Shown here piece after piece: positions 3,093 to 27,004 of a stretch of DNA of 64,000 nucleotides (position 1 is its first letter; each line of letters begins with the position of its first letter). Both the position numbers and the translations under genes were made by a program. The stretch spans positions 5,580,001 to 5,644,000 of the forward strand of contig NZ_CP064703.1 in the NCBI RefSeq assembly GCF_023101085.1. The letters run 5' to 3'. Below the pieces are notes generated by a model that saw nothing but the letters and a program-made list of their open reading frames with translations, did not search any database and was not told the origin of the DNA. The stretch is from Bradyrhizobium sp. 170. Its GTDB lineage: Bacteria > Pseudomonadota > Alphaproteobacteria > Rhizobiales > Xanthobacteraceae.

Positions 3093-3166
3093 CTTAAGCT
3101 CCACATCTTCTTTTCAAGTCGCTGCACGGACCTGCCGGAACGCGCGCCTCACATGTTTCGGCATGA

Positions 3167-5560: not shown

Positions 5561-5977
5561 AGTGGTTTCCTCCCAGATTTAAGAGTTTTGGGTTTCCGCC
5601 GAGACGGCCCATTTTCCATTCTTGGTCCCTATTCCTATCCCGTTCGGAAATAGGAAACTTGCCCAAGAGCGAAGCGCGTTTGCTCAATAGCGAAACTTAA
5701 TCATTTTTTTAATTTCGGACCGGCGCGCGACGTTCCGGCTCTGCCGTGATGCTGCGAAGCATCATTCCGTGGGCGTGTTCCCACGACCTTCCCTTGCGGC
5801 TCTCGGTCGAGGTTTCCCTTGACGCCGCCGAAAGTAAGTTGGAGGATTGTCAAAGGGATATTGGGAAGAATCTGCGCAACTTCCCGGACGACTGCCTAAA
5901 TTGGGTCCAAATGGTGCGACCATCTGACCGACGCCTTGGCGGAGGTCGTAGCCTGTTCTCAAATTGGTGGCTGGGCA
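5561..5977. promoter_or_regulatory. Divergent control region between xoxF and the AraC-type gene
   Basis: This 417-bp region carries the tandem repeat at 5661-5694 and an inverted pair TTCCTAT (5632-5638) / ATAGGAA (5650-5656), both on the xoxF side. Near the AraC gene is a short palindrome ATGGTGCGACCAT (5911-5923). The size and the number of repeats suggest several regulator sites. No coding sequence is convincing here, and the -10/-35 elements are not clear by eye. Confidence 0.6.
5661..5694 (+). promoter_or_regulatory. Tandem 13-bp direct repeats upstream of xoxF, 21-bp period
   Basis: GCCCAAGAGCGAA (5661-5673) is followed 21 bp on by GCTCAATAGCGAA (5682-5694), about 100 bp upstream of the xoxF start. 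Two half-sites spaced two helical turns apart are the usual layout for AraC-family activators. The same repeat with the same spacing occurs near pqqA at 26807-26840. Binding by the adjacent AraC-type protein is an inference. Confidence 0.6.
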
Positions 5978-6946
5978 ATGTCTGATACAGTTCGTTCACT
6001 CAGCACTTCCGGGTTAACGCCGAAGAGGCAGCTCCAAACTTGGTCAGATGCGCTGACCGATCTCTGCGGCCAGTTTGATGTCGATCCGCTGGAAGGTTCT
6101 TCGCTCGAGGCGCGAATCAATTACACCACCGTCTCGCAGCTCAAGCTGTGTCAGATCGAGGCAAGTCAGCATCGCATCGCGCACACGGTCTCAGGCACGA
6201 AACTGAGCGAACATCCCTACGTCAAGATATTGTTCCAGACCTACGGCATCTCGCATTTCGAACAAGGCGGCCGTCGCATCGACATCATGCCCGGCGATTG
6301 CCTCGCCTATGACGTCTCCTGTCCGCACACGATCGTCAGCCCCTCGTTGACCCGGCACGAGGTCGTGATCGTCCCAAAGGCACTGCTTCACGAGCGCGGC
6401 TTCCGCACGGCGAAGATGTTGCCGTGCAAGCTCTCCGCGCGTAACGGCACCGGCCGCATCGCCTACGACTTCGTGCACACCGCGTTTGACGAAGCAAACA
6501 GACTGTCGCCCTACAACGCCATCGGCGTCGCTGATTCGCTGATCGATCTGCTGCTGTTGCCGCTGCGCGAGGCCGACACGATGTTCGATCGCGTCGGTCC
6601 CGAGGCGATGTACATCCGGGCTCAAGCCTTCATCCGCGAACATTTGCGCGACCCGGATCTTTGCATCGACCAGATCTCGGCGGCATTGGGCTGCACCAAG
6701 CGCTATCTGCACATGCTGTTCAGCGACAAGGGCATGACCGTCAGCGATTACATCTGGCGGGCGAGGCTGATGCACTGCCGGCAGGAGCTGGAGACCCAGA
6801 ACGGAAAGACGATCACGGATGTCGCATTTTCGTGGGGCTTTTCCAGCTCGTCGCACTTCAGCCGCGTGTTCCGGAAGCATTTCGGGTTCGTTCCCTCCGC
6901 CATCCACAAGGCACACTGCGCCGATCCGTTGCCGGACGCTTCCTGA
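5978..6946 (+). CDS. AraC family transcriptional regulator, divergent from xoxF
   Basis: The 322-residue protein has an N-terminal AraC-binding-like (cupin-type) domain over roughly residues 1-190. The C-terminal pair of helix-turn-helix motifs (about residues 215-310) includes DQISAALGCTKRYLHMLF and ITDVAFSWGFSSSSHFSRVFRKHFG. I chose the ATG at 5978 (MSDTVRSLS); a TTG 42 bp upstream would only add an unlikely extension. Its divergence from xoxF and the AraC-like direct repeats in the shared region suggest it controls xoxF, perhaps in response to methanol, formaldehyde or lanthanide. The ligand is unknown. Confidence 0.9.
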   Translation: MSDTVRSLSTSGLTPKRQLQTWSDALTDLCGQFDVDPLEGSSLEARINYTTVSQLKLCQIEASQHRIAHTVSGTKLSEHPYVKILFQTYGISHFEQGGRRIDIMPGDCLAYDVSCPHTIVSPSLTRHEVVIVPKALLHERGFRTAKMLPCKLSARNGTGRIAYDFVHTAFDEANRLSPYNAIGVADSLIDLLLLPLREADTMFDRVGPEAMYIRAQAFIREHLRDPDLCIDQISAALGCTKRYLHMLFSDKGMTVSDYIWRARLMHCRQELETQNGKTITDVAFSWGFSSSSHFSRVFRKHFGFVPSAIHKAHCADPLPDAS

Positions 6947-7058
6947 CGAGGACGTTCCGGTTGTGCGGCAACCACATGTTGCCGCACCGTCGTCGATAGC
7001 TCGAAATTTTGCGCTTCCCCACACCGCCGGCCCATGATGGCTGCGCCGCGTCACCGGC

Positions 7059-9503
7059 TTAGAAGGTCGCCTTTAGCCCCGCATAGAAGGCACGCGGCCG
7101 CGCCGGGCTGACCGAACGCGCGTCAGTGAACTGCGTGCCGCCATTGGTGAAATTGGGCACGTTATCGGTATCGAAGAACGTTCCGTAGGTCGCATAGCGA
7201 TTGTCGAAGATATTGTCGACGCGGCCGTAGATCTGAAACGTCTTGTTGATCTGATACGAGGTGTGCAGGTTGAAAACCGAATAGCCGGGCAGTCTCGCCG
7301 CCTGGTTGGATTCATCGCCGACAAAATACTGGCTGCCGACGAACAACGCATCGCCGCCAACCTTGAAAGCGTCGGTGACCGAATAATCGATGCCAAATTT
7401 GACGCGGTTGCGCGGGATCGCAGGGATTCGGTTGCCCGGCAGTATCTGGACAACGTCGTCAACTGCGAACGGGCTGTTCGAGCCGACCTGCAGGGTATCG
7501 AGGAAGCGCGCATCGACGAGGGCATAGCTGGCGTATAGTTGCAGCGTCTTCGACGTCAGATTCACCTGGGCCTCGATGCCCTGGCGCCGCGTCCGACCCA
7601 CGTTCTGGAAATAGCCAAATCCCTGCAACTCCGGACTGGGAATCGCCAGGATGTCATCGGCATTCGTTGCGCGGAACGCGCCGACCTTCCACCCGAGCGT
7701 TCCGATATTCAGCTCCTTGGTGCCGCGCAGACCAAGCTCGACGGTACGGGACACGACCTGCTTCAGCGGCGGGTCGGCGATGAGGAATGCCGCGACGATA
7801 CAGGGGCGCGCAGGATCGGCGCATGCGAGTTCCAGCGGGGTCGGCGCGCGATTGGCTTCGGAATAGCCGGCATAGGCCGTCAGTTCAGGAGTAATCTTGT
7901 ATGTGCCGCCGATCATCGGATTGAAGCGGCTGAACGTATGTTCGCCGTTGAGATCGGTGCCGATCTGATCTTCAAGCTTGATGTGCGCATGGTTGAACCG
8001 GCCACCGCCCGAGATTGAAAACGCGTCCGTCACGTCGAATGTGTCGAGCGCATAGATTCCGGTGTAGCGGTTGGTGGCGCGAAGTCCGACCGGACCGATC
8101 GAAACCGGAATGCCGGACGGGCCGAGAAATATGCCGCTGCCGTTGACGACGTAGTTTGAGCCGATCGTGCCCAATTCCGCGCTGGCCCCGAAGCGGGTGA
8201 CGCCGGAGTCGACACTGGTGCCAACCATGAACTGATTGTTATGCCCGAACAACTGGTCGGTATTGGTTGCCTGCAAGGTTGCACCGGTCGTGACCGAACG
8301 GGTTGTTGTTCGGTCGATCTGCCCCAGCACGGCGTCGGTTGGGAAGGGATTTGCGAGCTGGACTCCGTTGAGCCCGTTCGCCGGCGCTCCCGGCGCGGTG
8401 TCTTCGTTGAAACAAAGCAGGCCCGGATCGGCGGCACACGGCGCCGTCTCGGTCGGGTTTCCGTCCACGGTTTTCTGCCGGAATTCACGGACGCGCGCTG
8501 AGCCTTCGATCGTCCAGGTCGGCGTGGCCTCGACCTTTCCGGTCAGATTGGCGTAGGCAACGCGGTTGTCCGTGGTCTGCGGTGTCGTATAGGTCGCACC
8601 CCAGTACTTCTGCAGCAACTCGATCGGCACCGCCGCCGCCGCGCCGAAATTGTTTTTGGCGACGCCCACGTTGAGGTGAAATTCACTGCTGTCGGTCCGG
8701 TAGCCGACATCGCCGTAGAACCGACGAATCGCCGATTCCGAAAAATTGCGATAGCCGTTGTCACGCACGCCTTCGAGCGCACCATAGACAGAAAAATTGT
8801 CGATCTGCTTGCCATACTGCGCCGAACTCTGGATGCGTCCGAAAGAGCCGCCCATCGTGTTGATTTCGGCACCTTTATAGTTGAATCCGTCCTTCATCTG
8901 CACGTTGGCGGCTCCGCCGAGGGCATTGAGACCGAACGCGGGATTGTTGGTTACGACGGTGACCGACCTGATCGCAGCGGTCGGGATCAAGTCCCAATTG
9001 ACGGTGTCGCCGAACGCCTCGTTGATTCGCACGCCGTTCTGGTAAACTGCCAGTCCCTGAGGGGTACCGGCGACCGGCGATGCAACGAAACCGCGAAACT
9101 GGATGTCCGGCATGAACGGATTGCCGGTCGTATCACTGATGATGATACCCGGTACCTGTTGCTGCAGTGCGTCCGCGATGTTCAGCGAGCCTGTGCGCGC
9201 GATCTGCCCGGCGCCGACGGCATTGACCGCTGCCGAGACCTTGTCGACATCCATTCCTGAGCCAACCGTCGGCGTCGGCGCGGTCGGGTAGACATACACT
9301 CTGCGCACGTTCCTGGTGGCCTGAGACGCCCTTCCGCTGCGGGATGGTTTAGCGGCCGTGGCCGGGGCGGTTACCTCGATGGCCGGCAAGACCTCACTGT
9401 GTCCTGCCGCAGTTTGGGCCAGAGCACTGTCATTCCCGGGAACCAGACATAGCGATACCGTCCCGATAAACAGGAATCTCGTGCCCATTTCGTCCCACCC
9501 CAT
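7059..9503 (-). CDS. TonB-dependent outer-membrane receptor
   Basis: The 814-residue protein has a signal peptide, a proline/threonine-rich N-terminal linker, a plug domain (about residues 85-200, with VPGIIISDTTGNPFMPDIQFRG and GGAANVQMKDG) and a long beta-barrel. It ends in a C-terminal phenylalanine (FYAGLKATF), as outer-membrane barrels do. It lies between the xoxF regulator and the FlhSR pair. Methylotrophs with XoxF use TonB receptors for lanthanide uptake (LutH in Methylobacterium), so a lanthanide or lanthanophore substrate is a reasonable but unproven inference. An internal ATG at 9488 is an alternative start. Confidence 0.92.
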   Translation of the reverse strand: MGWDEMGTRFLFIGTVSLCLVPGNDSALAQTAAGHSEVLPAIEVTAPATAAKPSRSGRASQATRNVRRVYVYPTAPTPTVGSGMDVDKVSAAVNAVGAGQIARTGSLNIADALQQQVPGIIISDTTGNPFMPDIQFRGFVASPVAGTPQGLAVYQNGVRINEAFGDTVNWDLIPTAAIRSVTVVTNNPAFGLNALGGAANVQMKDGFNYKGAEINTMGGSFGRIQSSAQYGKQIDNFSVYGALEGVRDNGYRNFSESAIRRFYGDVGYRTDSSEFHLNVGVAKNNFGAAAAVPIELLQKYWGATYTTPQTTDNRVAYANLTGKVEATPTWTIEGSARVREFRQKTVDGNPTETAPCAADPGLLCFNEDTAPGAPANGLNGVQLANPFPTDAVLGQIDRTTTRSVTTGATLQATNTDQLFGHNNQFMVGTSVDSGVTRFGASAELGTIGSNYVVNGSGIFLGPSGIPVSIGPVGLRATNRYTGIYALDTFDVTDAFSISGGGRFNHAHIKLEDQIGTDLNGEHTFSRFNPMIGGTYKITPELTAYAGYSEANRAPTPLELACADPARPCIVAAFLIADPPLKQVVSRTVELGLRGTKELNIGTLGWKVGAFRATNADDILAIPSPELQGFGYFQNVGRTRRQGIEAQVNLTSKTLQLYASYALVDARFLDTLQVGSNSPFAVDDVVQILPGNRIPAIPRNRVKFGIDYSVTDAFKVGGDALFVGSQYFVGDESNQAARLPGYSVFNLHTSYQINKTFQIYGRVDNIFDNRYATYGTFFDTDNVPNFTNGGTQFTDARSVSPARPRAFYAGLKATF

Positions 9504-9638
9504 CCCATTCCGGTTGCCCTGGCGGCTACTGGTTAGCTGGGGCTAATCTTAGGGCGTCAGTGTTATATTGCGCTATATTCAAAAGGTCCGGTTCACAGAT
9601 GCCCTTTTTCCCTGAACCAGCCAGGAAAACTTCCCGGA

Positions 9639-11012
9639 TCAGCAACGCACGTCTCTGGGAACTACAGCCTCCACCGTTACGCCGCCATCCCCGGAGGCAA
9701 TCGTAAGGGAGCCACCCAGCGCCAAAATGCGCTCACGCATTCCCGTCAACCCGAAGCCAAACTTGTGATCCGGCCTTAATCCGCCGCCATTGTCGCGGAT
9801 CCGTACCAGAGCGCCGCCGCGGCCGGTGCGCACCGGCCCCGAAAGCAGTTCCGTGGGTTCAACGGTTACGTTGACGCAGGTGGCGCTCGCGTGGCGAAAG
9901 ACATTGGTCAGTGCTTCCTGAATGGTACGGTAGATCGTCAAATCGGCCGTCTCCCCTGTGTCGCCCAGCGACTGCGAAATTGCCGTTTCAATAACGACGT
10001 CGGGATGCGACTCCCCCCATAGACGCAAGAGCGCACCGAGCGCTTCGTGAAGGCCGAGCTCCGTCAGACCCACGGGCCGCAGCTTTTCAAGGACTCGCCG
10101 ATTGGACTGCTGCAACGCATTGACCTGTTCCAATATCGCGCTGCCGTGCTTTCGCGTCGCTTCCACGTTCGGATCCCTTGCATCTGCGATCCGCGTCAGC
10201 GCGCCGGCATGGGCTCGCAAGGCAAAGAGATAGGGCCCGAATTCATCGTGAAGCTCGCGTGCGATTTCCTTGCGTTCGACATCCTGCAGCGAGACGATGC
10301 GTTCGGCCAGACGCCGCTTGTCGTCAACCGCGTTGCCCAGAGTGGCGGCAAGGTGATTCAACTTGTCGCAAATGGCAGAGAATTCCGGCGGGCCATCCGG
10401 CTTTACGTGCGTGTCGTAGCCGCCGGCTTCGATCTTCGTCATCGCTTCCGAAAGCGTCTGGATCGGCGCGAGCGCCCGGCTGACGACCCTGGTCGTAATG
10501 AGGAAAAGAACGACGGCAATTACCGTGCCGATCTGAAGCTGGGTGATAATTCCATCCCAGATCTCGGCCATCTCGTCGTTCGGATGCGACGTGATCAGCA
10601 ACGAACCCGGCTTTCCCTTGATCGAGATCGGCACGTCCACCGTGGTCTTTTCGGGGTGAACCAGCGTGACAAACCATGCCGGCGGCGAGCGTGCATCGGC
10701 ATTGCCGTCAGGGTTGTCCGCCTGCCCGGGTCTCTCGACCGCTTCGCCCTGCCGCGTGATACTGACGTGGCGCAGCCGGTTGAGGTCGTGAACAATCTGG
10801 TTCAACCGCGCCTCCGGGTCCGGCGCCTCGTTCAGTCCTGCAACGATCGTATCGATGAACTCACGCGCCAACCGTATGACGCTTTGATCTTCGGCCTGAA
10901 CACGGGGCCCGGCCTCGAGCACAAGCCGCGCAACATTGATCGCCAGGCCGAGCGTGAGGACGAGCGCGAGCAGCACGTTGATCCGGGCGCGCAAGGAAAA
11001 TTTTTGCCACAT
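9639..11012 (-). CDS. flhS: Sensor histidine kinase, FlhS/MoxY type
   Basis: This 457-residue membrane kinase has transmembrane segments near residues 11-32 and 157-175 enclosing a periplasmic sensor region of the LapD/MoxY type. A HAMP-like stretch follows, then a NarX-type dimerisation domain with phospho-acceptor His255 (EIARELHDEFGP). The ATPase region shows EALTNVFRHA, RIRDNGGGL and GFGLTGMRERI. FlhS and MoxY kinases control methanol and formaldehyde oxidation in Paracoccus denitrificans. It is transcribed away from its partner flhR. The stimulus is not evident from sequence. Confidence 0.88.
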   Translation of the reverse strand: MWQKFSLRARINVLLALVLTLGLAINVARLVLEAGPRVQAEDQSVIRLAREFIDTIVAGLNEAPDPEARLNQIVHDLNRLRHVSITRQGEAVERPGQADNPDGNADARSPPAWFVTLVHPEKTTVDVPISIKGKPGSLLITSHPNDEMAEIWDGIITQLQIGTVIAVVLFLITTRVVSRALAPIQTLSEAMTKIEAGGYDTHVKPDGPPEFSAICDKLNHLAATLGNAVDDKRRLAERIVSLQDVERKEIARELHDEFGPYLFALRAHAGALTRIADARDPNVEATRKHGSAILEQVNALQQSNRRVLEKLRPVGLTELGLHEALGALLRLWGESHPDVVIETAISQSLGDTGETADLTIYRTIQEALTNVFRHASATCVNVTVEPTELLSGPVRTGRGGALVRIRDNGGGLRPDHKFGFGLTGMRERILALGGSLTIASGDGGVTVEAVVPRDVRC

Positions 11013-11084
11013 AGCCTTTGTCCAGGAGTGAAATCGCCTTTGTCTGGGAGCGAAGTCGTCTTCAGTTCCGCATCGAGGGGAGCG

Positions 11085-11113
11085 TTGACAGATAAAATAG
11101 GCGTCTATCTAAT
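11085..11113 (+). promoter_or_regulatory. Sigma-70-like promoter upstream of flhR
   Basis: TTGACA at 11085-11090 and TCTAAT at 11108-11113 are separated by exactly 17 bp and point toward flhR, whose start is about 120 bp downstream. It is one of the closest matches to a housekeeping promoter in the window and suggests constitutive expression of the response regulator. Confidence 0.55.
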
Positions 11114-11235
11114 CGAAGCGTACAGCAACATCGCTCGGGTTGCATAACCGTCGACGGCGAGTATCGCTCCGACATCGGTGCCGCGTCTCACCTGATGTGG
11201 TGCAGCAACAGGATTGACGCGGGTATTCGGGACCA

Positions 11236-11862
11236 ATGCCAATGCGCGTGCTGATCGTTGATGACCATCGAATTGTTGCTTCGGGGTGCCGTGCCCTGTT
11301 CGCGGACGACCCCGAGATCGACATATTGGAGGCCTCCGACGCGGAGAGTGGCGAGCGCGTGTTCGGCGAACGTCATCCGGATATCTGCGTGCTCGATATC
11401 AACCTGCCGACGGTGTCCGGGTTTGAACTGGCGCGACGCCTCCTCGGGCGCGATGCCTCGGCACGTATCATCATGTTCAGCATGAACGATGATCCGGTAT
11501 TCGCCGCGCGCGCCATTGAAGTCGGCGCCAAGGGTTATGTTTCCAAAGCCGGGGATCCCCAGGACCTGGTTGAGGCCATCCGTGAAGTTGCAAAGGGAGG
11601 CGCTTATCTGCCGCCGGCGATGGCGCGAAGTATTGCATTCGCGAGACCCTCGTACGCCCAGAGCCCGCTTTCAAAACTGACTTCGCGCGAGATGGAGATA
11701 TTGCGCCTGCTCAGTGCCGGCAAAAGCCTGTCCGAAATTGCGTGGATGGTCCATTCCTCCTACAAGACGGTCGCCAATACCTCCTCGATTATGCGCCAGA
11801 AGCTCGGCGTGCGTACATCTGCCGAACTGGTGCGGTTAGCAATCGAGAACCGCGTGGCTTGA
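11236..11862 (+). CDS. flhR: NarL/LuxR-type response regulator, FlhR/MoxX type
   Basis: The 208-residue protein has a receiver domain (residues 1-120) with phospho-acceptor Asp54 in CVLDINLP and conserved lysine in GYVSKAG. A linker leads to a C-terminal LuxR-type helix-turn-helix (about residues 142-205, LTSREMEILRLLSAGKSLSEIA). It diverges from the flhS-like kinase gene and lies 36 bp upstream of fghA in the same direction, so it may be cotranscribed with fghA. By analogy with Paracoccus FlhSR it should activate the xoxF/formaldehyde genes. A second ATG two codons in (MRVLIV) is an equally good start. Confidence 0.9.
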   Translation: MPMRVLIVDDHRIVASGCRALFADDPEIDILEASDAESGERVFGERHPDICVLDINLPTVSGFELARRLLGRDASARIIMFSMNDDPVFAARAIEVGAKGYVSKAGDPQDLVEAIREVAKGGAYLPPAMARSIAFARPSYAQSPLSKLTSREMEILRLLSAGKSLSEIAWMVHSSYKTVANTSSIMRQKLGVRTSAELVRLAIENRVA

Positions 11863-11898
11863 GATGATGACGCAGCGCGGCGCTGGAGTGGTTAATTC

Positions 11899-12744
11899 AT
11901 GACGATGCAAACCGTTTCGCTCAACAAATCGCACAACGGCGTGCAGGGCGTTTACAAGCACGCCAGCCGCGAAACCGGCACCGACATGACCTTCTCGGTC
12001 TATGTGCCTCCGCACGCCGGCGGCGCCAGGCTGCCGGTGGTCTGGTATCTCTCCGGCCTGACCTGCACCCACGCCAATGTGACGGAAAAGGGCGAATTCC
12101 GCAGCGCCTGCGCCGCGCTTGGACTGATCTTCGTTGCGCCCGACACCAGCCCGCGCGGTGAAGGCGTGCCCGGCGATCCCGCCAATGCCTACGATTTCGG
12201 GCTTGGCGCCGGCTTCTATGTCGATGCGACACAGGAACCATTCGCCCGCAATTACCGCATGTGGAGCTACGTCACGGAAGAGCTGCCGAAACTGGTCGCT
12301 GAAAACTTTCCGGTCGACGCCAATCGACAATCCATTCTCGGCCACTCCATGGGCGGTCACGGCGCGCTGACGGTCGCGCTGCGCCATCCCGATCGATATC
12401 GCGCGGCAAGCGCGTTTTCGCCGATCGTTGCGCCCTCGCAGGTGCCCTGGGGTATCAAGGCCCTCGGCGGCTATCTCGGCGACATCAGGCAAGCATGGCG
12501 CAAGCACGATGCGGTGGCGTTGATCGAGGATGGCGCCAGAGTGTCCGATCTCCTGGTCGACTACGGTGACGCCGATCAGTTTCTGGCCGAACAGCTCCGC
12601 CCGGAGCTGCTGCAGGGCGCATGCGAGAAAGCCAAAATCCCCCTCACCTTGCGCCGGCAGCCCGGCTATGACCACAGCTACTACTTCATCTCCACGTTCA
12701 TGTCCGATCATCTGCGCTGGCACGCGGAGCGCCTGAAGGGCTGA
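11899..12744 (+). CDS. fghA: S-formylglutathione hydrolase
   Basis: The enzyme hydrolyses S-formylglutathione to formate and glutathione, the last step of glutathione-linked formaldehyde oxidation. The 281-residue alpha/beta hydrolase matches the esterase D family length and shows nucleophile Ser150 in GHSMGG, acid Asp226 (DYGDADQF) and His259 (PGYDHSYYF). The conserved WYLSGLTCTHAN oxyanion-side motif is also present. It completes the pathway with gfa and the dehydrogenase gene, which lie about 9 kb away in the xoxF operon on the other strand. Confidence 0.96.
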   Translation: MTMQTVSLNKSHNGVQGVYKHASRETGTDMTFSVYVPPHAGGARLPVVWYLSGLTCTHANVTEKGEFRSACAALGLIFVAPDTSPRGEGVPGDPANAYDFGLGAGFYVDATQEPFARNYRMWSYVTEELPKLVAENFPVDANRQSILGHSMGGHGALTVALRHPDRYRAASAFSPIVAPSQVPWGIKALGGYLGDIRQAWRKHDAVALIEDGARVSDLLVDYGDADQFLAEQLRPELLQGACEKAKIPLTLRRQPGYDHSYYFISTFMSDHLRWHAERLKG

Positions 12745-12745
12745 A

Positions 12746-12780
12746 ACGGCGTGAAGCCGTCCCAACCGAGAATTGGGTTG
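12746..12780 (+). terminator. Two small adjacent stem-loops after fghA
   Basis: ACGGC/GCCGT (12746-12760) and CCCAA/TTGGG (12761-12777) form two consecutive short hairpins directly after the fghA stop. No T-tract follows, so termination is uncertain. They could mark the boundary between fghA and the ABC operon. Confidence 0.3.
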
Positions 12781-12860
12781 CAAGCCAAGACAATTCGGTC
12801 ATGGTTCAAGCCAACGGCCTTCGATACGGCGAAGTCGAGAAGGCCTGTCAGGGAGGAGCC

Positions 12861-14042: not shown

Positions 14043-14059
14043 AGGAGGATGGATTGCGT

Positions 14060-17302: not shown

Positions 17303-17436
17303 CCGCTGGCAGGATGAGACCAAGTTGGGCCGAGACGACGGACCATCCCGTGCCCCGGACGCAAGCGGCTGGAGTGCTGCGAGACCAGCCCTATTCTACT
17401 TTGCATGGGGTTGTTTTCGACATTTTGTGTCCCGCC

Positions 17437-18012
17437 CTAATGCACCGATGGCGCCGCCTCGCCTGCCCGCGGTTCCGGCTGCGCCTCCATCAACGCCAGC
17501 CCGGCCCGTTCCCAGCCATCCGTTCCTTCGGAGTACCACGCAACGTTGGCGTAGCCGTAGGTTAGGATTCGCTTTGCCGCGTTCCAGGACATCCAGCAAT
17601 CGGCCTGACAGTAAACCACCACCAGCGCGGTAGTGTTGCCCGCCGTCGCGCGGACGAGCCCCCGCCGCAGATAGTCTTCCGTCGCCGCCGCGAGCTTTCC
17701 GTAGCCAGTATCCGGCAGCCACACGCTGCCGGGAATGTTGAGCCGCGGCTGGTCGCGCCAGACCGTGCCTTGAGGAAGATTTGGCGGCTTCGGCGCGCGG
17801 GGCATTACGTCGATGAACACGCCCGCTTTTGCTTGCCAGATCGCGCCGGCCTCCGCGGTCGTCAGAACACGCGCGCCTGAGAGCGTCGCGGGAACCGGCG
17901 CACGGTAATCTTCCATGCGGTACCCGTCCGGTTCGGGAGGCCCTTCCTGCGCTGATGCCGAGACACTGAATGTGAATGCCGCAAGGATCAGACCTGCGAG
18001 CGATTCCTTCAT
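17437..18012 (-). CDS. PQQ-dependent catabolism-associated cysteine-motif protein, rhodanese-like
   Basis: The 191-residue exported protein (signal peptide ends ASA, residue 20) has a rhodanese-like fold with FIDVMPR and the family signature CQADCW. Cys135 and Cys139 are followed by WMSWNAAKR. The family is known as PQQ-associated CXXCW motif proteins, although three residues separate the cysteines here. The start at 18012 overlaps the stop of the XoxJ-like gene (ATGA). A much longer frame reading upstream overlaps that gene and is spurious. A role in periplasmic thiol or sulfur chemistry near the quinoprotein is inferred. Confidence 0.86.
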   Translation of the reverse strand: MKESLAGLILAAFTFSVSASAQEGPPEPDGYRMEDYRAPVPATLSGARVLTTAEAGAIWQAKAGVFIDVMPRAPKPPNLPQGTVWRDQPRLNIPGSVWLPDTGYGKLAAATEDYLRRGLVRATAGNTTALVVVYCQADCWMSWNAAKRILTYGYANVAWYSEGTDGWERAGLALMEAQPEPRAGEAAPSVH

Positions 18013-18893: not shown

Positions 18894-19129
18894 CAAAAGC
18901 TGCTGCACTTCCGGCCCACCATTGTTGCCAACTTCGGAAAAGTATCGGCAACCCCGACGAACGAAGTTCCGTTGAAGCCGCAGACAAGCAAAATGCTAAG
19001 CTTGTCAATTGGCGCGTGCAACTGGAATAATCCCGATAGCGGCCTCATTGCCTGTGCTGCGACGCAAACGTAGGCGCGATGAAGCATGAAACTGCCGATA
19101 GCATTTCGTGGTGAGACGGAGGCCGAAAT

Positions 19130-20053
19130 ATGGCTCATCCCGCATTGATCCTTGCCGCGCTCGCGATGCTCGCTACGGCGACAGCTTCGTTCGCGCAGCA
19201 GCGGGAGTTGCCCGTGAACTCCGTTGCGGATGGCGTGTTCGTGCACAACGGCCACACCGCACAGATGACGCGCGAGAACGACGGCGCGATCGCCAATGTC
19301 GGTTTCATCGTTGGCGAGGATGCGGTCGCCGTGATCGACACGGGTGGCAGCCTCCGCGAGGGACGACAATTGATTGCTGCCATTCGTGCCCGGACCGGCA
19401 AGCCGATCCGCTACGTCATCAATACGCACGGCCATCCCGATCACGTTTTCGGCAATGGCGCCTTCGTGCAGGATGGCACAACCTTCGTCGGCCACGCAAA
19501 CCTGCCACGTGCGTTGGCCGCGCGCGGACAATTCTATCTCGATGCATTTCGCCGGACCATGGGCGACGAGCTGATCGACGAGATACGGATCGTGCCGCCA
19601 ACGCTGCTCGTCAGCGGCACGCTCAACCTGGACCTCGGCCGACGAACCCTCGTCTTGCGGGCGTGGCCTGCCGCGCATAGCGATTGCGATCTCACGGTGC
19701 TCGATGAAAAAACCGGAACTCTGTTCGCGGGCGATCTGGTGTTTCTGGCCCACACGCCCGTACTGGACGGCAGCATCCGCGGCTGGCTGGCCGCACTCGG
19801 CGAGCTCGGCGCCCTATCAGCACAACGCGTGGTTCCCGGTCACGGTCCTGTGAGCGGATGGCCGGGCGCGCTCGCCGACGAGCGCCGCTATCTCCAAACG
19901 CTGGCCTCAGACGTACGCGGGCTCGTCGCCCGCGGTGAGCCGATCGCGGCGGCTGGCACGGCAGCGAACTCCGAGCGATCCCGATGGGAATTGTTCGACG
20001 ACTTCAACACCCGCAACGCAACCGCAGCATTTTCGGAAATTGAATGGGAATAG
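19130..20053 (+). CDS. Quinoprotein relay system zinc metallohydrolase (SoxH-related)
   Basis: The 307-residue exported protein (signal peptide ends SFA) has a complete metallo-beta-lactamase metal site: His100, His102, Asp104 and His105 in THGHPDH, then His183 (AAHSDCDL), Asp202 (FAGDLV) and His238 (PGHGP). It belongs to the SoxH-related group found beside PQQ dehydrogenases, and it is paired with the SoxYZ-like gene 54 bp downstream. SoxH-type enzymes are thought to act on carrier-bound sulfur adducts. The actual substrate here is unknown. It diverges from the XoxJ-like gene. Confidence 0.88.
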
Positions 20054-20107
20054 CGCGCGCGTTGCCCTATATTGCGTGCGTTGCTTCCATTCCAATGAAG
20101 GTGGTGC

Positions 20108-20926
20108 ATGCCCGGATCTCTTTTCCGCCTGCTCGGCGTCGCTGGCTTGCTGTTGTTCGGCGCGCCGCTGACGCTTGCGGCAACATCAAACGACCCCTGG
20201 CCCGGCCTGGTCCAGGACATCTTTAACAACCGGCCGATCAACGATGGCAGCGACGTGATCGCCATCGAAATGCCGTCCCGAGCCGAAGATGCCGCCATCG
20301 TGCCGGTGACCTTGCGAACGAAGCTTTCGCCCGGTGATATCAGGCAGGTGTTGAGCATTACGCTGGTCATCGACCAGAACCCCGCGCCGATGGCGGCAAA
20401 ATTCCAGCTCGGGCCGGACGCCAAAGTGTCTGAGATCTCCACCCGCGTCCGCGTCAACAACTACACCGATGTTCATGCGGTAGCCGAGCTCAGCGACGGC
20501 AAACTTTACATGGTCAAGACCTATGTGAAGGCGTCCGGCGGCTGCTCGGCGCCTGCCGCCAAGAACGCCGACGAAGCCAAGGGCAGGCTCGGCCAGATGC
20601 GCTACCGGCAGTTCGGAAAAGCCGGTGAAGGCCCCGCCAGCGGCATGCGCGAGGCACAGATCATGATCGGGCATCCCAACAATTCCGGCCTGCAGATGGA
20701 CCAGGTCACGCACCTCTATGTCCCGGCCTTCTTCGTCAACGAACTGCGGCTTTGGCAGGACGACAGCCTGGTGTTGACCATGGAAGGCGGCATTTCAATT
20801 TCGGAAGATCCCAATATCAGGTTCACCTACGCGTCGAATGGCGCGAAAGAGTTCCGCGCCGAGGCCAAGGATACTGAGGGACACGTCTTCCAGCGCGAGT
20901 GGAAGATCGACGATTCCGGGATTTGA
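20108..20926 (+). CDS. Quinoprotein dehydrogenase-associated SoxYZ-like carrier protein
   Basis: The 272-residue exported protein fuses a SoxY-like domain (about residues 30-150) to a SoxZ-like domain (about 165-272). In sulfur oxidisers these form a two-chain carrier that holds substrate on a cysteine near the SoxY C-terminus. Here the equivalent GGC lies at residues 144-146, inside the fusion rather than at a chain end. The signal peptide ends near residue 25 (LAA). It follows the metallohydrolase gene, forming a carrier-hydrolase pair. No soxA, soxX or soxB is visible, so ordinary thiosulfate oxidation is unlikely. Confidence 0.87.
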   Translation: MPGSLFRLLGVAGLLLFGAPLTLAATSNDPWPGLVQDIFNNRPINDGSDVIAIEMPSRAEDAAIVPVTLRTKLSPGDIRQVLSITLVIDQNPAPMAAKFQLGPDAKVSEISTRVRVNNYTDVHAVAELSDGKLYMVKTYVKASGGCSAPAAKNADEAKGRLGQMRYRQFGKAGEGPASGMREAQIMIGHPNNSGLQMDQVTHLYVPAFFVNELRLWQDDSLVLTMEGGISISEDPNIRFTYASNGAKEFRAEAKDTEGHVFQREWKIDDSGI

Positions 20927-20947
20927 CGCCGAGCCGCGTATAACGCC

Positions 20948-21307
20948 TCAGAAACAGCGCACTTCCGCTTCGGCCTGGGCCCGCCTGAGTTCGTTGAGCG
21001 CGCTTGCCGCCTGCTCTGATGTGCGGAACTGCCCGCCCAGATTTCCCCGGACCTGCGACATGCTGAGGACGGTTTCGGCCGTGACATACCGCGCAAAGGG
21101 CACGAGCGAAGCGACAACGTCGATCGAACAGGAGCATTGCTCGATCGCCTGCCGCGTCTCGCCATTCGCTTTCAGGCAACCGAAAACATATTCGACGCGC
21201 GCCGATGTCGGATAGTCGTTGATGTCCTGGGCGTGCGTGGTCACGGCCATCGTCATCAGCGCTATCAACGCGGCGACAATACGTCGTACCGATCCGACAA
21301 GCATCAT
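20948..21307 (-). CDS. Small exported cysteine-containing protein, unknown function
   Basis: This 119-residue protein has a signal peptide (ending THA) and a cysteine pattern FGCLKANG...QCSCSID...CF-end, which suggests disulfides or metal binding in the periplasm. GAGGAAGA precedes the ATG. It converges on the SoxYZ-like gene with 21 bp between stops and sits opposite the ABC operon starting at 21394. I recognise it only as a conserved companion of xoxF/PQQ loci. Confidence 0.75.
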   Translation of the reverse strand: MMLVGSVRRIVAALIALMTMAVTTHAQDINDYPTSARVEYVFGCLKANGETRQAIEQCSCSIDVVASLVPFARYVTAETVLSMSQVRGNLGGQFRTSEQAASALNELRRAQAEAEVRCF

Positions 21308-21393
21308 CGTCTTCCTCCCACTGCTAACCGTGGAAGCTATGCTATGACTGCCCTGCTGAAAAGCAGACGTTAGAGGAAACGGCTCAACGGACC

Positions 21394-22368
21394 ATGAAAC
21401 TTCTTGTTCGCATGCTGCTTGCTACGATTGTTCTGGTCTCGCTCGGCACGTGCTGCAGCGCCGAGGCTTTACGCGTTGCGGTGCAGAAGACCGGAACATT
21501 CGCCTGGGAACTCGCAGTGATCCGCGCGCACGGCCTCGACAAGCGGGCCAACCTTTCGGTCCAGGTTCTCGAACTGGCGAGCCCCGAGGCGGGCAAGATC
21601 GCGCTTCGCGCCGGAAACGCCGACATTGTGGTCACCGACTGGCTTTGGGTGTCCCGCGAACGCGGACTTGGCGCCAAACTGACATTCTATCCTTATTCGA
21701 GCGCGCTCGGCGCCGTAATGGTGCCTGCCGCATCACCGATCCAGAGCTTAGCCGATCTTAGGGGCCGCAGGCTCGCCGTCGCGGGTGGGCCGATCGACAA
21801 GAGCTGGCTGCTGCTGCTGGCGTGGTTGAAGCAGGGCGGCATCGACCTGAAGTCGGAGGCGACAATCGCGTACGGCGCGCCACCGCTGCTGGCTGCGAAG
21901 ACGCTCAGCGGCGAAATGGATGCGACCTTGAACTACTGGAATTTCTGCGCCGGACTGGAAGCGAAGGGTTTTCGCCGCGTCGCCGGCATTGAGGATCTGC
22001 TGCCGAAACTCGGCGCCAAGGGCCGCACCGCGATGATCGGCTACGTCTTCGACGAAAAGTGGGCGAACGCAAACCAGGACAAGATTGCCCGCTTCATCGC
22101 CATGACCCGCGCGGCGAAAGAGATCCTGTCGACCTCGGATGCGGAGTGGGAGAAAATTGCGCCACTGACCGGCGCTCCCGATGCCGCAACGTTGCGCGCC
22201 TATCGCGATCGCTATCGGGAGGGAATTCCGCGTCGCCCGGTCGCAGACGAAGAAGCCGACGCACGCATTCTCTACCGCGTGCTGGCTGACATCGGCGGCC
22301 GCGAACTTGTCGGGCCGGCGCGTGAACTCGATTCCGGAACATTCTATCACGCGATCCCGGGAGACTGA
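21394..22368 (+). CDS. ABC transporter substrate-binding protein, SsuA/NMT1-like
   Basis: The 324-residue exported protein (signal peptide ends CCSAEA) has the family-16 fold of nitrate, sulfonate and thiamine-precursor receptors: LRVAVQKTGTFAWELAVIRAHGLDKRA at the start and GNADIVVTDWLWVSRERG. The permease gene begins at a GTG two bases after its stop. Many SsuA-like receptors bind sulfonates, but the position inside a xoxF/PQQ island suggests a substrate tied to that system. The ligand cannot be read from the sequence. Confidence 0.85.
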   Translation: MKLLVRMLLATIVLVSLGTCCSAEALRVAVQKTGTFAWELAVIRAHGLDKRANLSVQVLELASPEAGKIALRAGNADIVVTDWLWVSRERGLGAKLTFYPYSSALGAVMVPAASPIQSLADLRGRRLAVAGGPIDKSWLLLLAWLKQGGIDLKSEATIAYGAPPLLAAKTLSGEMDATLNYWNFCAGLEAKGFRRVAGIEDLLPKLGAKGRTAMIGYVFDEKWANANQDKIARFIAMTRAAKEILSTSDAEWEKIAPLTGAPDAATLRAYRDRYREGIPRRPVADEEADARILYRVLADIGGRELVGPARELDSGTFYHAIPGD

Positions 22369-22369
22369 G

Positions 22370-23107
22370 GTGCCGCGTCTGCTGTCATTCGCCGTGCTGC
22401 TCGCAACCTGGTGGATCGCCTCGCTGTTTGCCGGAGACGCGAAGCTGCCACCTCCCCCCACCGTGCTCACGGCCATGATTGCGGAAGCGAGGTCGGGTGA
22501 CTTGTTCTTCCATCTCGGCGTGACATTGGTGCGCGTTGCGCTCGCCTTCACGCTGGCGATGACGCTGGGCGCCGCCATCGGATACCTGATGGGCCGGGTA
22601 CGGCTTGCCGATCGGCTGGTCGACCCCTGGCTGATCCTGCTGCTCAATCTGCCGGCGCTCGTGGTCATCGTGCTCGCCTACATCTGGGCTGGATTGACTG
22701 AAGTCGCCGCTATTGCCGCAATCGCCATCAACAAGCTCCCGACGGCTGTCGTTACGCTGCGCGAGGGCGCGCGTGCCCTCGACGCGGCGCTCGACGAAAT
22801 GGCGACAGTGTTTGCGTTGCCGCGCTGGAAGAAGTTCCGGCACGTCATTTTGCCGCAACTGTCGCCCTATATCGCAGCCGCCGCGCGATCAGGGCTTTCC
22901 CTGGTCTGGAAGATCGTCCTTGTTGCGGAATTACTCGGACGTCCGAACGGTGTTGGCTTCGAGATTGGCGTGGCGTTCCAGCTGTTCGACATTCCGCTAT
23001 TGCTTGCCTATTCACTGAGCTTCGCGGCGGTCGTGCTCCTCATTGAAACCTTGTTGGTGCAGCCATTTGAGGCCCGGCTATCCCGGTGGCGTCCCCGTGC
23101 GGCTTGA
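22370..23107 (+). CDS. ABC transporter permease, SsuC-like
   Basis: The 245-residue inner-membrane protein has about six transmembrane segments and the BPD_transp_1 contact motif (EMATVFALPRWKKFRHVILPQLSPY). The start is a GTG at 22370 with GGGAG upstream, right after the receptor stop; an in-frame opening from 22181 lies inside that gene. It overlaps the ATPase gene by 11 bp, so the three genes make one importer. Confidence 0.88.
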   Translation: MPRLLSFAVLLATWWIASLFAGDAKLPPPPTVLTAMIAEARSGDLFFHLGVTLVRVALAFTLAMTLGAAIGYLMGRVRLADRLVDPWLILLLNLPALVVIVLAYIWAGLTEVAAIAAIAINKLPTAVVTLREGARALDAALDEMATVFALPRWKKFRHVILPQLSPYIAAAARSGLSLVWKIVLVAELLGRPNGVGFEIGVAFQLFDIPLLLAYSLSFAAVVLLIETLLVQPFEARLSRWRPRAA

Positions 23108-23825
23108 GGTCGATATCGCCAGCAAGACGTTCAAGAACGCAGCGGGCGAACAGCACGACGTGATCGCCGGCGTGGCCTTCGCGCTTGATGCCGGAGAGGT
23201 TGGTGTACTGGTCGGTCCATCCGGCTGCGGCAAGAGTACGATGCTCAGGATTCTCACCGGCCTCGACCCCGACTTTCAGGGGCGCGTCTCGCGTCCTGCC
23301 GGCGCGCGGATCGGCTTCGTGTTCCAGGAGCCGCGGCTGCTGCCCTGGCGGTCGGTCGAAGAAAATGTACGACTTGCCGCGCCCCTGGCCGATGAAGCGA
23401 AACTTTCAGCGCTGTTCGAGATTCTGGAATTGAACGCGCATCGCAACCATTTTCCCGGCGAACTATCGCTAGGTCTGGCCCGGCGCGTCGCGCTCGCCCG
23501 AGCGTTCGCCGTCGAGCCGGCCTTCCTCATTCTCGACGAACCGCTGGCCTCACTCGATGCCGCCCTCGCCGCCCGTATGCGCGATCAGATCGCCATGTTG
23601 ATGGACAACCGTTCCATGATAACGCTGCTGGTTACCCATGACGTGGACGACGCGGTTCGCCTCGGCGACCGCCTGTTCCTGCTGTCGCCGCGACCGGCCC
23701 GGATTGTCGCCGACCTGCCTGTCCGCACACCGCGCGGCGAGCGCGGAGATGCCGAGATCGCCGCAATCAAGCTGGACGTCATGCGGCGGATCAATGGCGA
23801 TCCCCCCGGGCAGGAAAGCTCATAG
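23097..23825 (+). CDS. ABC transporter ATP-binding protein, SsuB-like, degenerate signature
   Basis: The 242-residue ATPase has Walker A GPSGCGKST, Q-loop FVFQEPRLLPW, Walker B FLILDEPLASLDA and the switch histidine in LLVTHDVDDA. The signature motif reads LSLGLARR instead of LSGGQ(R/K)R. The GTG at 23097, inside the end of the permease gene, gives the best N-terminus (VRLEVDIASKTF). The intact Walker motifs argue for an active enzyme despite the altered signature. Confidence 0.87.
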   Translation: MRLEVDIASKTFKNAAGEQHDVIAGVAFALDAGEVGVLVGPSGCGKSTMLRILTGLDPDFQGRVSRPAGARIGFVFQEPRLLPWRSVEENVRLAAPLADEAKLSALFEILELNAHRNHFPGELSLGLARRVALARAFAVEPAFLILDEPLASLDAALAARMRDQIAMLMDNRSMITLLVTHDVDDAVRLGDRLFLLSPRPARIVADLPVRTPRGERGDAEIAAIKLDVMRRINGDPPGQESS

Positions 23826-23873
23826 GCAGTGCTTGAGGCCGGTGCTAGGATTACGTCACAGGCGGGGTTAGAG

Positions 23874-24668
23874 ATGAAACGCTCGATCGGAACCGCAGCG
23901 CTCGGTCTTGCTCTTTTGACCATGACGGCAACGGCGCAGGACATGATGCGTCACGTGGACCTGTCGTCACCCGATATGGTCTCGGCCGAAATGACCCGCG
24001 GAGAGGTCGAGGCCGCGCTCGCTGCGGCGACCGCCACCGCGCCCGCCGATTTCACAGGAAAGAGATTATCCGGTCTCGACCTCTCCGGGCTCAACCTGTC
24101 CGGCGCGAGTTTTCGCGCGGCACGTCTCAACAGGACAAAGCTCGCCGGCGCCAAGCTCGACCGTGCAATCCTCGACCAGGCATGGCTGCTCGAGGCGGAC
24201 CTGACCGGCGCAAGCCTGAAGGGCGCAAACCTGTTCGCCTCGCAGATGGTTCGCGCCCGTCTGGACGGCGCCGATCTCTCGGGAGCACGCATCGCTGCCG
24301 ATCTCACCGGCGCGAGCCTCGTCGGAGCTTCGATCGCGGATGCAAATCTGGGCGCCGACATGCGCAACCAGTCGATGGGCCTGATGCGCGCAATTCTGAA
24401 ATCCGCCAATCTGGAACGGCTGAACGCACGCGGCGCCGACCTGTCGCGCGTCGATCTTGAGTTTGCCGTGCTGAAGGGCGGTGACCTCACGGGTGCTTCG
24501 CTCAAGAGGGCCCAACTCGGGGGAGCCGACTTGACCGGTATCACCGTCATCGATACCGATTTCGATGGTGCCGATCTCGATTCAGCCAGGTTGATCGCCC
24601 CAATCGGCCTCGACCGGGCGAGAAATTTCGATAAGGCCAAAAATCGAGACCGTCTGATAAAGCAATGA
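23874..24668 (+). CDS. Exported pentapeptide-repeat protein
   Basis: The 264-residue protein has a signal peptide (ending ATAQ, near residue 22). From about residue 70 to 245 it carries consecutive A(D/N)LxG-type pentapeptide repeats (LSGLDLSGLNLSGASF, ADLTGASLKGANLFASQM), which form a right-handed beta-helix. Periplasmic export of such a protein is less common than cytoplasmic forms. It lies 48 bp downstream of the SsuABC-like operon and may be part of it. Its function in the island is unknown. Confidence 0.85.
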   Translation: MKRSIGTAALGLALLTMTATAQDMMRHVDLSSPDMVSAEMTRGEVEAALAAATATAPADFTGKRLSGLDLSGLNLSGASFRAARLNRTKLAGAKLDRAILDQAWLLEADLTGASLKGANLFASQMVRARLDGADLSGARIAADLTGASLVGASIADANLGADMRNQSMGLMRAILKSANLERLNARGADLSRVDLEFAVLKGGDLTGASLKRAQLGGADLTGITVIDTDFDGADLDSARLIAPIGLDRARNFDKAKNRDRLIKQ

Positions 24669-24703
24669 CGGCTCTGAACGCTCCGCGATGAAAGGATTGC
24701 CCG

Positions 24704-25048
24704 ATGCGATGGACCCTGGCTTTGGCGGCCCTGCTGTCAGCGAGCGCCAATGAAGTGGCCGCGCAGGGAAAAGGCGTCCGATTGTGGAATCTGACCACCG
24801 CGACCATTTCGGAGTTTCAGCTTTCCCTGCCCGGAAAGAACGACTGGGGTCCCAACCAGACCCTGAACGACAAGGACAAGGAAGTCGACCACGACGAACG
24901 TCTGCGCATCACGGGGGTGGAGCCGGGACGCTATGACGCCAAGGTCGGCTATCGCGGCTCGAAACATTGCTTTGTGCGCGGCATCGAGATCAAGGCCGAC
25001 GCCGTGTTTTCGATCGCGGACAAGGATTTGAAGGACTGCAACAAGTAG
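24704..25048 (+). CDS. Small exported acidic protein, unknown function
   Basis: This 114-residue protein has a signal peptide (ending VAA, about residue 20) and a small beta-rich mature domain. It begins VRLWNLTTATISEFQLS and contains an unusually acidic run, NDKDKEVDHDERL. Two cysteines near the C-terminus (HCFVRG and DC) could pair. The aspartate-rich stretch does not fit a canonical EF-hand. It is 35 bp after the pentapeptide gene in the same direction. I do not recognise a function. Confidence 0.72.
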   Translation: MRWTLALAALLSASANEVAAQGKGVRLWNLTTATISEFQLSLPGKNDWGPNQTLNDKDKEVDHDERLRITGVEPGRYDAKVGYRGSKHCFVRGIEIKADAVFSIADKDLKDCNK

Positions 25049-25076
25049 CCGCTACAGCCTTCTCGCCGACGATGGT

Positions 25077-25313
25077 TCAGCCTGCGGACCACACGGCGTC
25101 CTGGAATGCCTTTTGGTTGTTACGTGGATATTCGCAGCGCCATTTCACCGCGGTCCATTTCGGATGCTCGCCAACCCACTGCGCGATGTAGGGCTGCGCA
25201 GCCATGACGCACTGCCGTAACGAAACATCTGAAGAAAAGACCAGATGGGTTTCCTCGCAGGTGGTCGGCGAGAGCACCGCACAAACGGTCACGATCAAAT
25301 CTATCGGAGTCAT
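25077..25313 (-). CDS. Small conserved cysteine protein, unknown function
   Basis: The 78-residue product starts at MTPIDLIVTVCAVL with AAGGGATAT upstream. It carries four cysteines (VCAVL, TTCEE, RQCVM, WRCEY) and aromatic clusters (YIAQWVGEHPKWTAVKW). Similar small proteins are common in Bradyrhizobium genomes without an assigned role. The hydrophobic first 15 residues could be a short secretion signal. It converges on the acidic small protein gene. Confidence 0.6.
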   Translation of the reverse strand: MTPIDLIVTVCAVLSPTTCEETHLVFSSDVSLRQCVMAAQPYIAQWVGEHPKWTAVKWRCEYPRNNQKAFQDAVWSAG

Positions 25314-25448
25314 GGCTGATATCCCTTGAATTGCTCCCGAATTAATAACGCAAAAAGCTACGGTAACGGGTGCGTAAAGTTTCACTACCCCGTGAAAAGC
25401 CGGAACCGGGCCGCGCGGCGCCGCCAGCTCTAAAAGTCGCCTCCAGCC

Positions 25449-26321
25449 CTAAAAGTTAACACCAAATATCAAGCGTGCCTGATGGCGTTCGAAATTGACG
25501 AGATCAAGGCTGGCTATTGACCCCGCCGGACGCCCCCACGCCTGAACGCTCCAGCTTGCGGTCAGCCGCGAGCGTTTCGACAATTGGAAGTATGCCGTTG
25601 GACCGACAAACAACGCCTGCCCTGCAAGTTCCTCCAAACCGATCCCTTCGTATTTCCGCAAGTAACGCGCTTCACCGCCCAGGAGGAAACCGGGACGCAA
25701 CTGCGCCATCAGCGCAAGTGCCACACCTGCGGTGGATTCCCGCTCCATCACACCACTGCCGACAAGGCGCGTCCACTCCGGTTCGTAGATCAGGTTGAAC
25801 GCCGCAACGACGCGGTTCGGCACGAGCTCCCGGTCGAACGCCAGCCTGAACTCCGTTCCGAAACTCCGGACCGTTTCGGCCGTCGCCTCATCGACACGAT
25901 GCGCGTGCGCTTCCGCCGCGAAAGTGAGCCCGAACAGGGCCGTTTCCCGGTCGAGAAAGCGGTAGCGCAAATCGAGCGACCCGCCCTGCCACGACAGCCG
26001 GCGCTGGTCGTCAAGACCTGGCACACCGCTGATCAGGTGCGACGCAAACGTGCTTCCGATCTCTATTCGAAAATTCCGGACAGGCACAAACTCCAGCTCG
26101 AACTCCTGGCCGACGGCCCGATAACGGCCGCCGTTCTTGCCGAAGCGTCCGGTCGTCTCGCTTTGAAACTCCCGTTCGCCGACATTGCCGACATCGGTTC
26201 CGATCATGAAGCCGAACACATGCTCGGTATCGATGCCCTCGGCATGGACGCAGGCCGGCAGCAGCGCAGCAAGAGACACGACCGCCGCCTGGAGGGTCTT
26301 TGCACGCGCAGATATTCGCAT
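25449..26321 (-). CDS. Putative outer-membrane beta-barrel protein, unknown function
   Basis: The 290-residue protein has a signal peptide (ending VHA) followed by alternating amphipathic strands with aromatic girdle residues. It ends in a C-terminal phenylalanine (LIFGVNF), the usual outer-membrane sorting signal. Repeated features such as GGSLDLRYRFLDRETALFGLTF look like barrel strands with short turns. It stands alone between the cysteine protein gene and pqqA. A channel role in the methanol system is possible but not shown. The start lacks a strong ribosome binding site. Confidence 0.7.
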   Translation of the reverse strand: MRISARAKTLQAAVVSLAALLPACVHAEGIDTEHVFGFMIGTDVGNVGEREFQSETTGRFGKNGGRYRAVGQEFELEFVPVRNFRIEIGSTFASHLISGVPGLDDQRRLSWQGGSLDLRYRFLDRETALFGLTFAAEAHAHRVDEATAETVRSFGTEFRLAFDRELVPNRVVAAFNLIYEPEWTRLVGSGVMERESTAGVALALMAQLRPGFLLGGEARYLRKYEGIGLEELAGQALFVGPTAYFQLSKRSRLTASWSVQAWGRPAGSIASLDLVNFERHQARLIFGVNF

Positions 26322-26598
26322 TCAGCGGGTCATGGGGTTGAACCGGTAAAATCCGGCAGAGTCGGCCGAGGACATACCCTAGCATGATGCTGGGACCATC
26401 GGCGAGCCACGGGAACATGTGGGAAAGAGAAATCGGGACGGGATCGCCATCCGGGCGACCGTCTACATTGGGATTCGCGCCCTGCTCTTGATGCAGGTGG
26501 TGGAGAACTTCCAAGGATCATACAGCTTGAGATCGTACAGCTTGCCCGACCCGCAGCAACAGACCGTTGCCGGAGCCGGGCAGACCGTTTCGACGCGT

Positions 26599-26679
26599 CT
26601 ATTGACGCGCCGCGCAGGCGTACATGTTGATTTCCATGCCCACCGGCACTTCCACAATCTTCGGAGTTTTCCAACTCAT
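26599..26679 (-). CDS. pqqA: PqqA, coenzyme PQQ precursor peptide
   Basis: The 26-residue peptide reads MSWKTPKIVEVPVGMEINMY followed by ACAARQ, with the invariant Glu16 and Tyr20 that are cross-linked and excised to form PQQ. GGGAG lies about 12 nt upstream of the ATG at 26679. pqqBCDE do not follow in this window, so they must lie elsewhere. The gene is immediately relevant to XoxF, which needs PQQ. A direct repeat like that at xoxF lies about 130 bp upstream. Confidence 0.95.
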   Translation of the reverse strand: MSWKTPKIVEVPVGMEINMYACAARQ

Positions 26680-27004
26680 CAGGGTTTCTCCCAAGCAGTG
26701 CTGGCACGACATTCGTGCCGGCACCAAAACTAGGTTGACCTCGAACGTAGCGCAAGCTCGGAACATCAGACATTGACGGCATACCGGCGCATCTGACGCC
26801 GGAAACTTCCCTCTTGGGCAAAGCCACTTCGCTCTTGGACAAGGCGAACGAGCGAAAGCGACGAATCGACGTATACGTCGCGTCGGTCACGATTGGCGAA
26901 TTCGGTTCGCCTAACAAAACCTGTCTGTTGCAGTCGGACACTTCGGGGATGTCGGAGAGCCGGCCGAAGCGCCGACAATCCGACACCGCCTGAGCTACAC
27001 GCCC
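26680..27004. promoter_or_regulatory. Upstream region of pqqA, repeat-rich
   Basis: This 325-bp region holds the direct repeats at 26807-26840, a TTCGCTC (26828-26834) / GAGCGAA (26850-26856) inverted pair, a 14-bp palindrome CGACGTATACGTCG (26867-26880) and a GGCGAA/TTCGCC hairpin (26895-26911). Frames reading through it have no protein-like features. It most likely controls pqqA. Confidence 0.55.
26807..26840 (-). promoter_or_regulatory. Tandem 13-bp direct repeats upstream of pqqA, matching the xoxF site
   Basis: TTCCCTCTTGGGC (26807-26819) and TTCGCTCTTGGAC (26828-26840) are 21 bp apart. Read on the minus strand they are GTCCAAGAGCGAA and GCCCAAGAGGGAA, near-identical to the pair at 5661-5694. 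The near edge is 127 bp from the pqqA start. Relative to its gene the pair is inverted compared with the xoxF copy. Confidence 0.58.

Follow-up and report, generated by a model that had tools for sequence, protein, structure and literature searches.

Two repeat pairs in the genome of Bradyrhizobium sp. 170 are candidate operators through which a FeaR-like protein of the AraC family would quite probably activate, jointly, the xoxF-xoxG-frmA-gfa operon and an orphan pqqA gene. Most likely, the protein would bind as a dimer to two direct half-sites (TTGYCCAANAGNGAA) placed two helical turns apart. The dimer would activate the xoxF-xoxG-frmA-gfa promoter, with its poor −35 element, from a class II position, and the orphan pqqA from a class I position, approximately 50 bp above a better −35 element and with the pair facing the other way relative to its gene. 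Joint activation would raise the enzyme together with the precursor peptide of PQQ, and the main pqq operon would be left under other control. The identity of the binder, activation rather than repression, the promoter elements and the inducer are what we infer from the data described below.

Genes and repeat pairs in the window

The window, that is the whole 64,000-nucleotide stretch of DNA analysed, spans positions 5,580,001-5,644,000 of the 9.2-Mb single-contig genome, and coordinates of its features are counted from its first letter. The xoxF gene (3755-5560, minus strand; TIGR03075) encodes a PQQ-dependent dehydrogenase of the methanol/ethanol family, its product scoring 782.6 bits against a cut-off of 480.05; XoxF-type dehydrogenases feature an extra active-site Asp for the lanthanide (PMC12628762). 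It is followed on the same strand by the genes of a xoxG-like c-type cytochrome related to methanol metabolism (3167-3679; TIGR03874), of S-(hydroxymethyl)glutathione dehydrogenase (frmA, 1986-3104; TIGR02818) and of S-(hydroxymethyl)glutathione synthase (gfa, 1383-1985; TIGR02820), and the four genes presumably form one operon.

The AraC-type gene that the first-pass annotation had placed beside xoxF is indeed there (5978-6946, plus strand) and is divergent from it. Its product, the presumed binder, contains a C-terminal double HTH (HTH_18, E 1.2e-19) and an N-terminal ligand/dimerisation domain (AraC_binding_2, E 1.3e-13). The best family match is FeaR (NCBIfam NF007243) and, because its 164.5 bits fall under the curated 199-bit cut-off, the protein is called FeaR-like only. 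The gene is followed by that of a TonB-dependent receptor (7059-9503, minus strand), as also in 16 of 80 related loci (the best 80 of 131), which is possibly a lanthanide or metallophore receptor. Further along (9639-11862), two genes lie beside a PQQ-associated ABC transporter cluster: one encodes a histidine kinase whose periplasmic match to LapD_MoxY is weak, the other a response regulator of the LuxR type.

The 26-codon pqqA gene for the PQQ precursor peptide (26599-26679, minus strand; TIGR02107 above cut-off) lies approximately 21 kb from xoxF and araC. It is regarded as an orphan, rather than a member of a pqqABCDE operon, because the sole pqqE above cut-off in the genome is found at 2,362,450-2,363,523, approximately 3.2 Mb away. 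The three other pqqA copies of the genome have no repeat pair upstream on their own strand. Downstream of the orphan pqqA, and transcribed in its direction, lies the gene of a 290-aa protein (25449-26321), which is found likewise in 8 of 10 pqqA loci of the pattern scan described below. The protein has no match in Pfam or NCBIfam; by eye it resembles a secreted beta-barrel, and it might be co-transcribed with pqqA or help in PQQ release.

The repeat pairs are located at 5659-5694 (plus strand), where the pair reads against xoxF, and at 26807-26842 (minus strand), where it reads with pqqA. Both positions had been indicated by the first-pass annotation, which described a 13-bp unit with an 8-bp spacer and a 21-bp period. 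The positions and the period were confirmed, and the unit was redefined when a conserved TTG was noticed before each 13-mer: the half-site is a 15-bp direct repeat with a 6-bp spacer. Shuffling the window 100 times gave no match to the pair. Across the entire genome, CAANAGNGAA-N11-CAANAGNGAA is perfect at these two sites only, the next best having 2 mismatches, and the 36-bp consensus (22 scored positions), allowing up to 3 mismatches, retrieves the two sites plus one stray with 3 mismatches. The reversed consensus at the same threshold retrieves none. Occurrence at chance frequency, named at the outset as evidence that would count against the proposal, is thus not what the 9.2-Mb genome shows, and the pair is real. 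By the same token, no third target of the pair was found with the 36-bp consensus at up to 3 mismatches, the one stray apart.

Conservation at xoxF and pqqA

Related loci were fetched by means of the AraC protein and the best 80 of 131 were kept; they are uninformative on genomes without araC because they were chosen by araC, and their counts are not independent because relatives share ancestry. In a search of the plus strand, the pair was found between xoxF and the divergent araC in all 80 loci, with 0 mismatches over the 22 scored positions in 57, 1 in 22 and 2 in a single locus. The reversed intergenic regions, used as a control, gave 3 mismatches at best and most commonly 7 (37/80). Site positions are 96% conserved as compared with 55% in the ungapped flanks. 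The period is 21 bp in 59 loci and 22 bp in 21, the latter being exactly the loci of what we label the elkanii-like clade. This clade had seemed to be site-less because the strict 21-bp pattern misses the 22-bp period, and that reading was discarded as wrong.

Genomes with more than one xoxF-like gene were also considered. In G187, of which two of the three xoxF-like genes were taken in, the pair is present at the xoxF adjoining araC and absent from the 2-kb stretch at the second, close xoxF copy. Likewise, in G308 it is found at the araC-linked xoxF and not at the second copy. In G255, where araC is not divergent from xoxF but is found on its opposite side, the closest pair has 1 mismatch and is approximately 425 nt from the xoxF start instead of 98 nt; this pair may or may not serve xoxF.

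At pqqA, the pair was searched on the gene's own strand, except for the strict-site search, which covered both. Within the same araC loci (best 80 of 131) it lies upstream of 35 of the 43 pqqA genes, always with a period of 21 bp and at most 2 mismatches. The other 8, found in L107, L111, L113 and L114, in L087, L088 and L141, and as the second copy in L081, have no pair on their own strand, with nothing better than 7 mismatches. The absence or scrambling of the pair in close relatives, named at the outset as evidence that would count against it, is therefore mostly not observed at either gene. Thirteen further pqqA genes from other genomes comprise 9 with the pair and 4 without, namely one in G047 (which has no araC), two in G131 (which has araC) and the second copy in G029. 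Across loci the distance of pqqA from araC varies, and its strand relative to araC may be either. Of the distinct strict sites that have a pqqA nearby, 47 of 47 are on the strand of that gene.

When pqqA upstream regions identical over 160 bp are counted once, 66 distinct pairs remain, with the end of the site 104-148 nt upstream of pqqA (224 nt in one) and a period of 20 bp in one and of 22 bp in two. Each of the 15 pqqA genes fetched from the elkanii-like clade (L145-L159) has one half-site only, ATGYCCAGCAGSGAA. At G101:C1:157211-157244 (L164), away from pqqA, the half-site of the candidate operators occurs as a pair with 19-bp spacing.

Promoter layout and orientation of the pair

The predicted −10 element of xoxF is TAGGAA (5632-5637, minus strand), its TA occurring at this offset, 22-23 nt from the site on the xoxF strand, in 78 of 80 loci, as the second best conserved dinucleotide on that side. 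The predicted −35 element, a poor AAGTTT (5655-5660, minus strand), was placed by assuming 17 bp between it and the conserved −10, and overlaps the pair by 2 bp. That the pair abuts the predicted −35 fits a class II position. For the divergent gene, a conserved promoter-like element, TTGACG...GAGGAT (5819-5847, plus strand), is found in 80/80 loci, 82-128 bp from the site; the pattern was chosen after the sequences had been seen, and the element would be the promoter of araC.

At pqqA, a block conserved in relatives (CTTG...TAG) puts the predicted −35 element, TTGCGC (26750-26755, minus strand), approximately 50 bp downstream of the pair, and the predicted −10 element, TAGTTT (26727-26732, minus strand), 17 bp from it. 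The pair would thus be upstream of a better −35, in a class I position. The distance between the site and the −10 element among the 66 distinct pairs is 70-74 bp in 60, 60-62 bp in 3 (one with a weak −10) and 52 bp in 3; in 10 of the 66 the −10 was missed by its pattern and was measured separately. The single half-sites of the elkanii-like clade are 42-43 bp from the −10 (14 cases). The distances appear to differ between lineages in steps of approximately 10 bp, as if only whole helical turns were tolerated, with four length classes among related genomes. The pqqA promoters (26727-26756 in the window) have CTTG(CGC/AAC) at −35 and CCTAG at −10, and CTTG in the −35 has been linked to RpoH-like promoters (PMC4842269). 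The main text of the B. japonicum start-site literature has no mention of xoxF, pqq or methanol.

The inversion of the pair relative to its gene at pqqA, for which the first-pass annotation had asked an explanation, is real, since the pair reads along the strand of pqqA and against that of xoxF. Sites of MarA-type activators are single and bound by a monomer, whereas the Bradyrhizobium candidate operators are made of two direct half-sites. With this difference, the arrangement resembles what has been described for MarA-type activators, with site orientation flipping between class I and class II promoters, and with a good −35 lacking in class II and a better one present in class I promoters (PMC10268841, PMC8811837). 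In our case the flip is between a site overlapping the predicted −35, which is poor, and an upstream site with a better one, so that the class II/class I rule may, by analogy, explain the opposite orientation at xoxF and pqqA. However, both MarA-type rules are obeyed by only 19 of 36 regions, and the pqqA pair is further upstream than the MarA-type class I range of 53-73 bp (PMC10268841).

Distribution of the regulator and of the site

The regulator is present in 136 of 146 Bradyrhizobium genomes, a count that takes in an araC ortholog of G097 (C131:33633-34589) containing a single in-frame TGA, although its locus is conserved in other respects. The strict pattern was found in 110 of the 146, counting a site anywhere in the genome, with individual sites taken from among the matches listed. 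It is present in 109 of the 136 AraC-positive genomes as compared with 1 of the 10 AraC-negative ones (Fisher p 1.2e-5, relatedness ignored), and the single AraC-negative genome that has the pattern is an 80%-complete assembly. The 27 AraC-positive genomes missed by the strict pattern all have a pair with 1-2 mismatches upstream of araC.

A pattern-only scan of 248 genomes of the family gave 35 matches in 27 genomes belonging to 4 of 47 genera, and the reversed pattern, as a control, gave none in the same genomes. Thirty of the 35 matches were fetched as loci and proved to be 20 xoxF/araC and 10 pqqA loci; the remaining five adjoin known pqqA or araC positions. An exception to the association is the complete genome of G237 (L180, L205, L212), with a perfect pqqA pair and no ortholog of the regulator, the best AraC match being 24% identical; the 2-kb stretch fetched at its xoxF is devoid of the pair. 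Unless this genome has lost or replaced the regulator, it speaks against the simple model. On the whole, the link between the AraC protein and the pair proposed at the outset gains support from their co-occurrence, and the conservation of the pair at both xoxF and pqqA similarly argues for one regulator coordinating the enzyme and its cofactor precursor; both proposals remain conditional, as readings of sequence.

Alternative explanations

The pair could be the operator of a different regulator, be it another protein of the AraC type or the histidine kinase/LuxR-type pair close by, the adjacent araC being a passenger. Such an arrangement would account for the pqqA pair kept by G237 without the AraC ortholog, and in the window the kinase and the response regulator lie 3-6 kb from araC. 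We consider it unlikely, however: the kinase/response regulator pair is found in 0 of 29 japonicum-type loci (with flanks of at most 10 kb, shorter in some loci), in which the site is kept, and the presence of the AraC protein tracks that of the site. Furthermore, AraC dimers recognize two direct half-sites approximately 21 bp apart, a layout that the observed pair suits.

The position of the intergenic site between divergent genes, reading along araC, would also be compatible with autoregulation of araC or repression of xoxF, so that pqqA alone would be activated. The TT found 13-16 bp past the site on the araC side, conserved in 93-98% of the 80 loci, and the distant pair of G255 point the same way. 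Yet araC has the conserved promoter-like element of its own, 82-128 bp from the site, and in 78 of 80 loci a constant distance separates the site from the TA assigned to the putative −10 of xoxF, which makes this reading improbable, and more so than the previous one. Shared ancestry or chance, in the form of a duplicated promoter piece or of a functionless repeat, would find an argument in a sample made mostly of close relatives, but it is contradicted by the conservation across the 80 loci, with site positions exceeding their flanks, and by the genome search, with only two sites in 9.2 Mb; the two copies are, in addition, oppositely oriented with respect to their genes, and we give this explanation hardly any credit. 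Joint activation of xoxF and the orphan pqqA by the FeaR-like protein is thus preferred.

Relation to known systems and possible inducers

FeaR of Escherichia coli has the same domain make-up as the Bradyrhizobium regulator, and its targets differ from xoxF and pqqA; nothing useful was found in the literature on the FeaR operator. Coordination of PQQ-dependent dehydrogenases with pqq genes is already known, for example in Pseudomonas, where AgmR (PedR1/ErbR) activates the pqq operon along with the ped genes for alcohol dehydrogenase (PMC12997753). As would be the case in Bradyrhizobium, a single regulator there links dehydrogenases that depend on PQQ with genes of PQQ synthesis located far away in the genome. 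However, AgmR is of the LuxR type and controls the whole pqqFABCDE operon, whereas the Bradyrhizobium candidate is a FeaR-like AraC protein that would act on the orphan precursor gene only. In the open-access literature surveyed, mostly as titles and abstracts and with Pastawan et al. 2020 (strain Ce-3) outside its scope, no regulator of xoxF in Bradyrhizobium is named and no AraC-type regulon including an orphan pqqA is described.

XoxF drives lanthanide-dependent methanol use in Bradyrhizobium, and in Bradyrhizobium sp. 3456, with the same xoxF-xoxG-frmA-gfa order as judged by locus-tag numbers, growth on methanol raised xoxF 59-, xoxG 43-, frmA 27- and gfa 30-fold (PMC12628762). Since the 59-fold increase of xoxF was observed on methanol relative to succinate with La in both media, our guess is that methanol or formaldehyde is a likelier inducer than the lanthanide. 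In the same RNA-seq experiments the PQQ biosynthesis genes, among which pqqA is not named, were not upregulated (PMC12628762), which counts against the model. The terms ‘AraC’, ‘promoter’ and ‘pqqA’ have no occurrence in the main text of that report, and the orphan pqqA may have gone uncounted there, in which case induction of the precursor gene only would reconcile unchanged PQQ genes with the model.

A more speculative and rather doubtful extension is that of a supply valve, in which the extra pqqA alone would be induced with the dehydrogenase. The FeaR-like regulator would sense the formaldehyde produced by XoxF, a case of positive feedback; once bound to the inducer, it would activate one gene from a class II position and the other, with its orientation reversed, from a class I position.

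The analysis gives a candidate regulator of xoxF in Bradyrhizobium along with its putative operator sequence and target promoters. With its 26 codons, the pqqA concerned is a gene that annotation may miss, and the model suggests that induction of only the precursor peptide may be how cofactor supply is kept in step with the enzyme.
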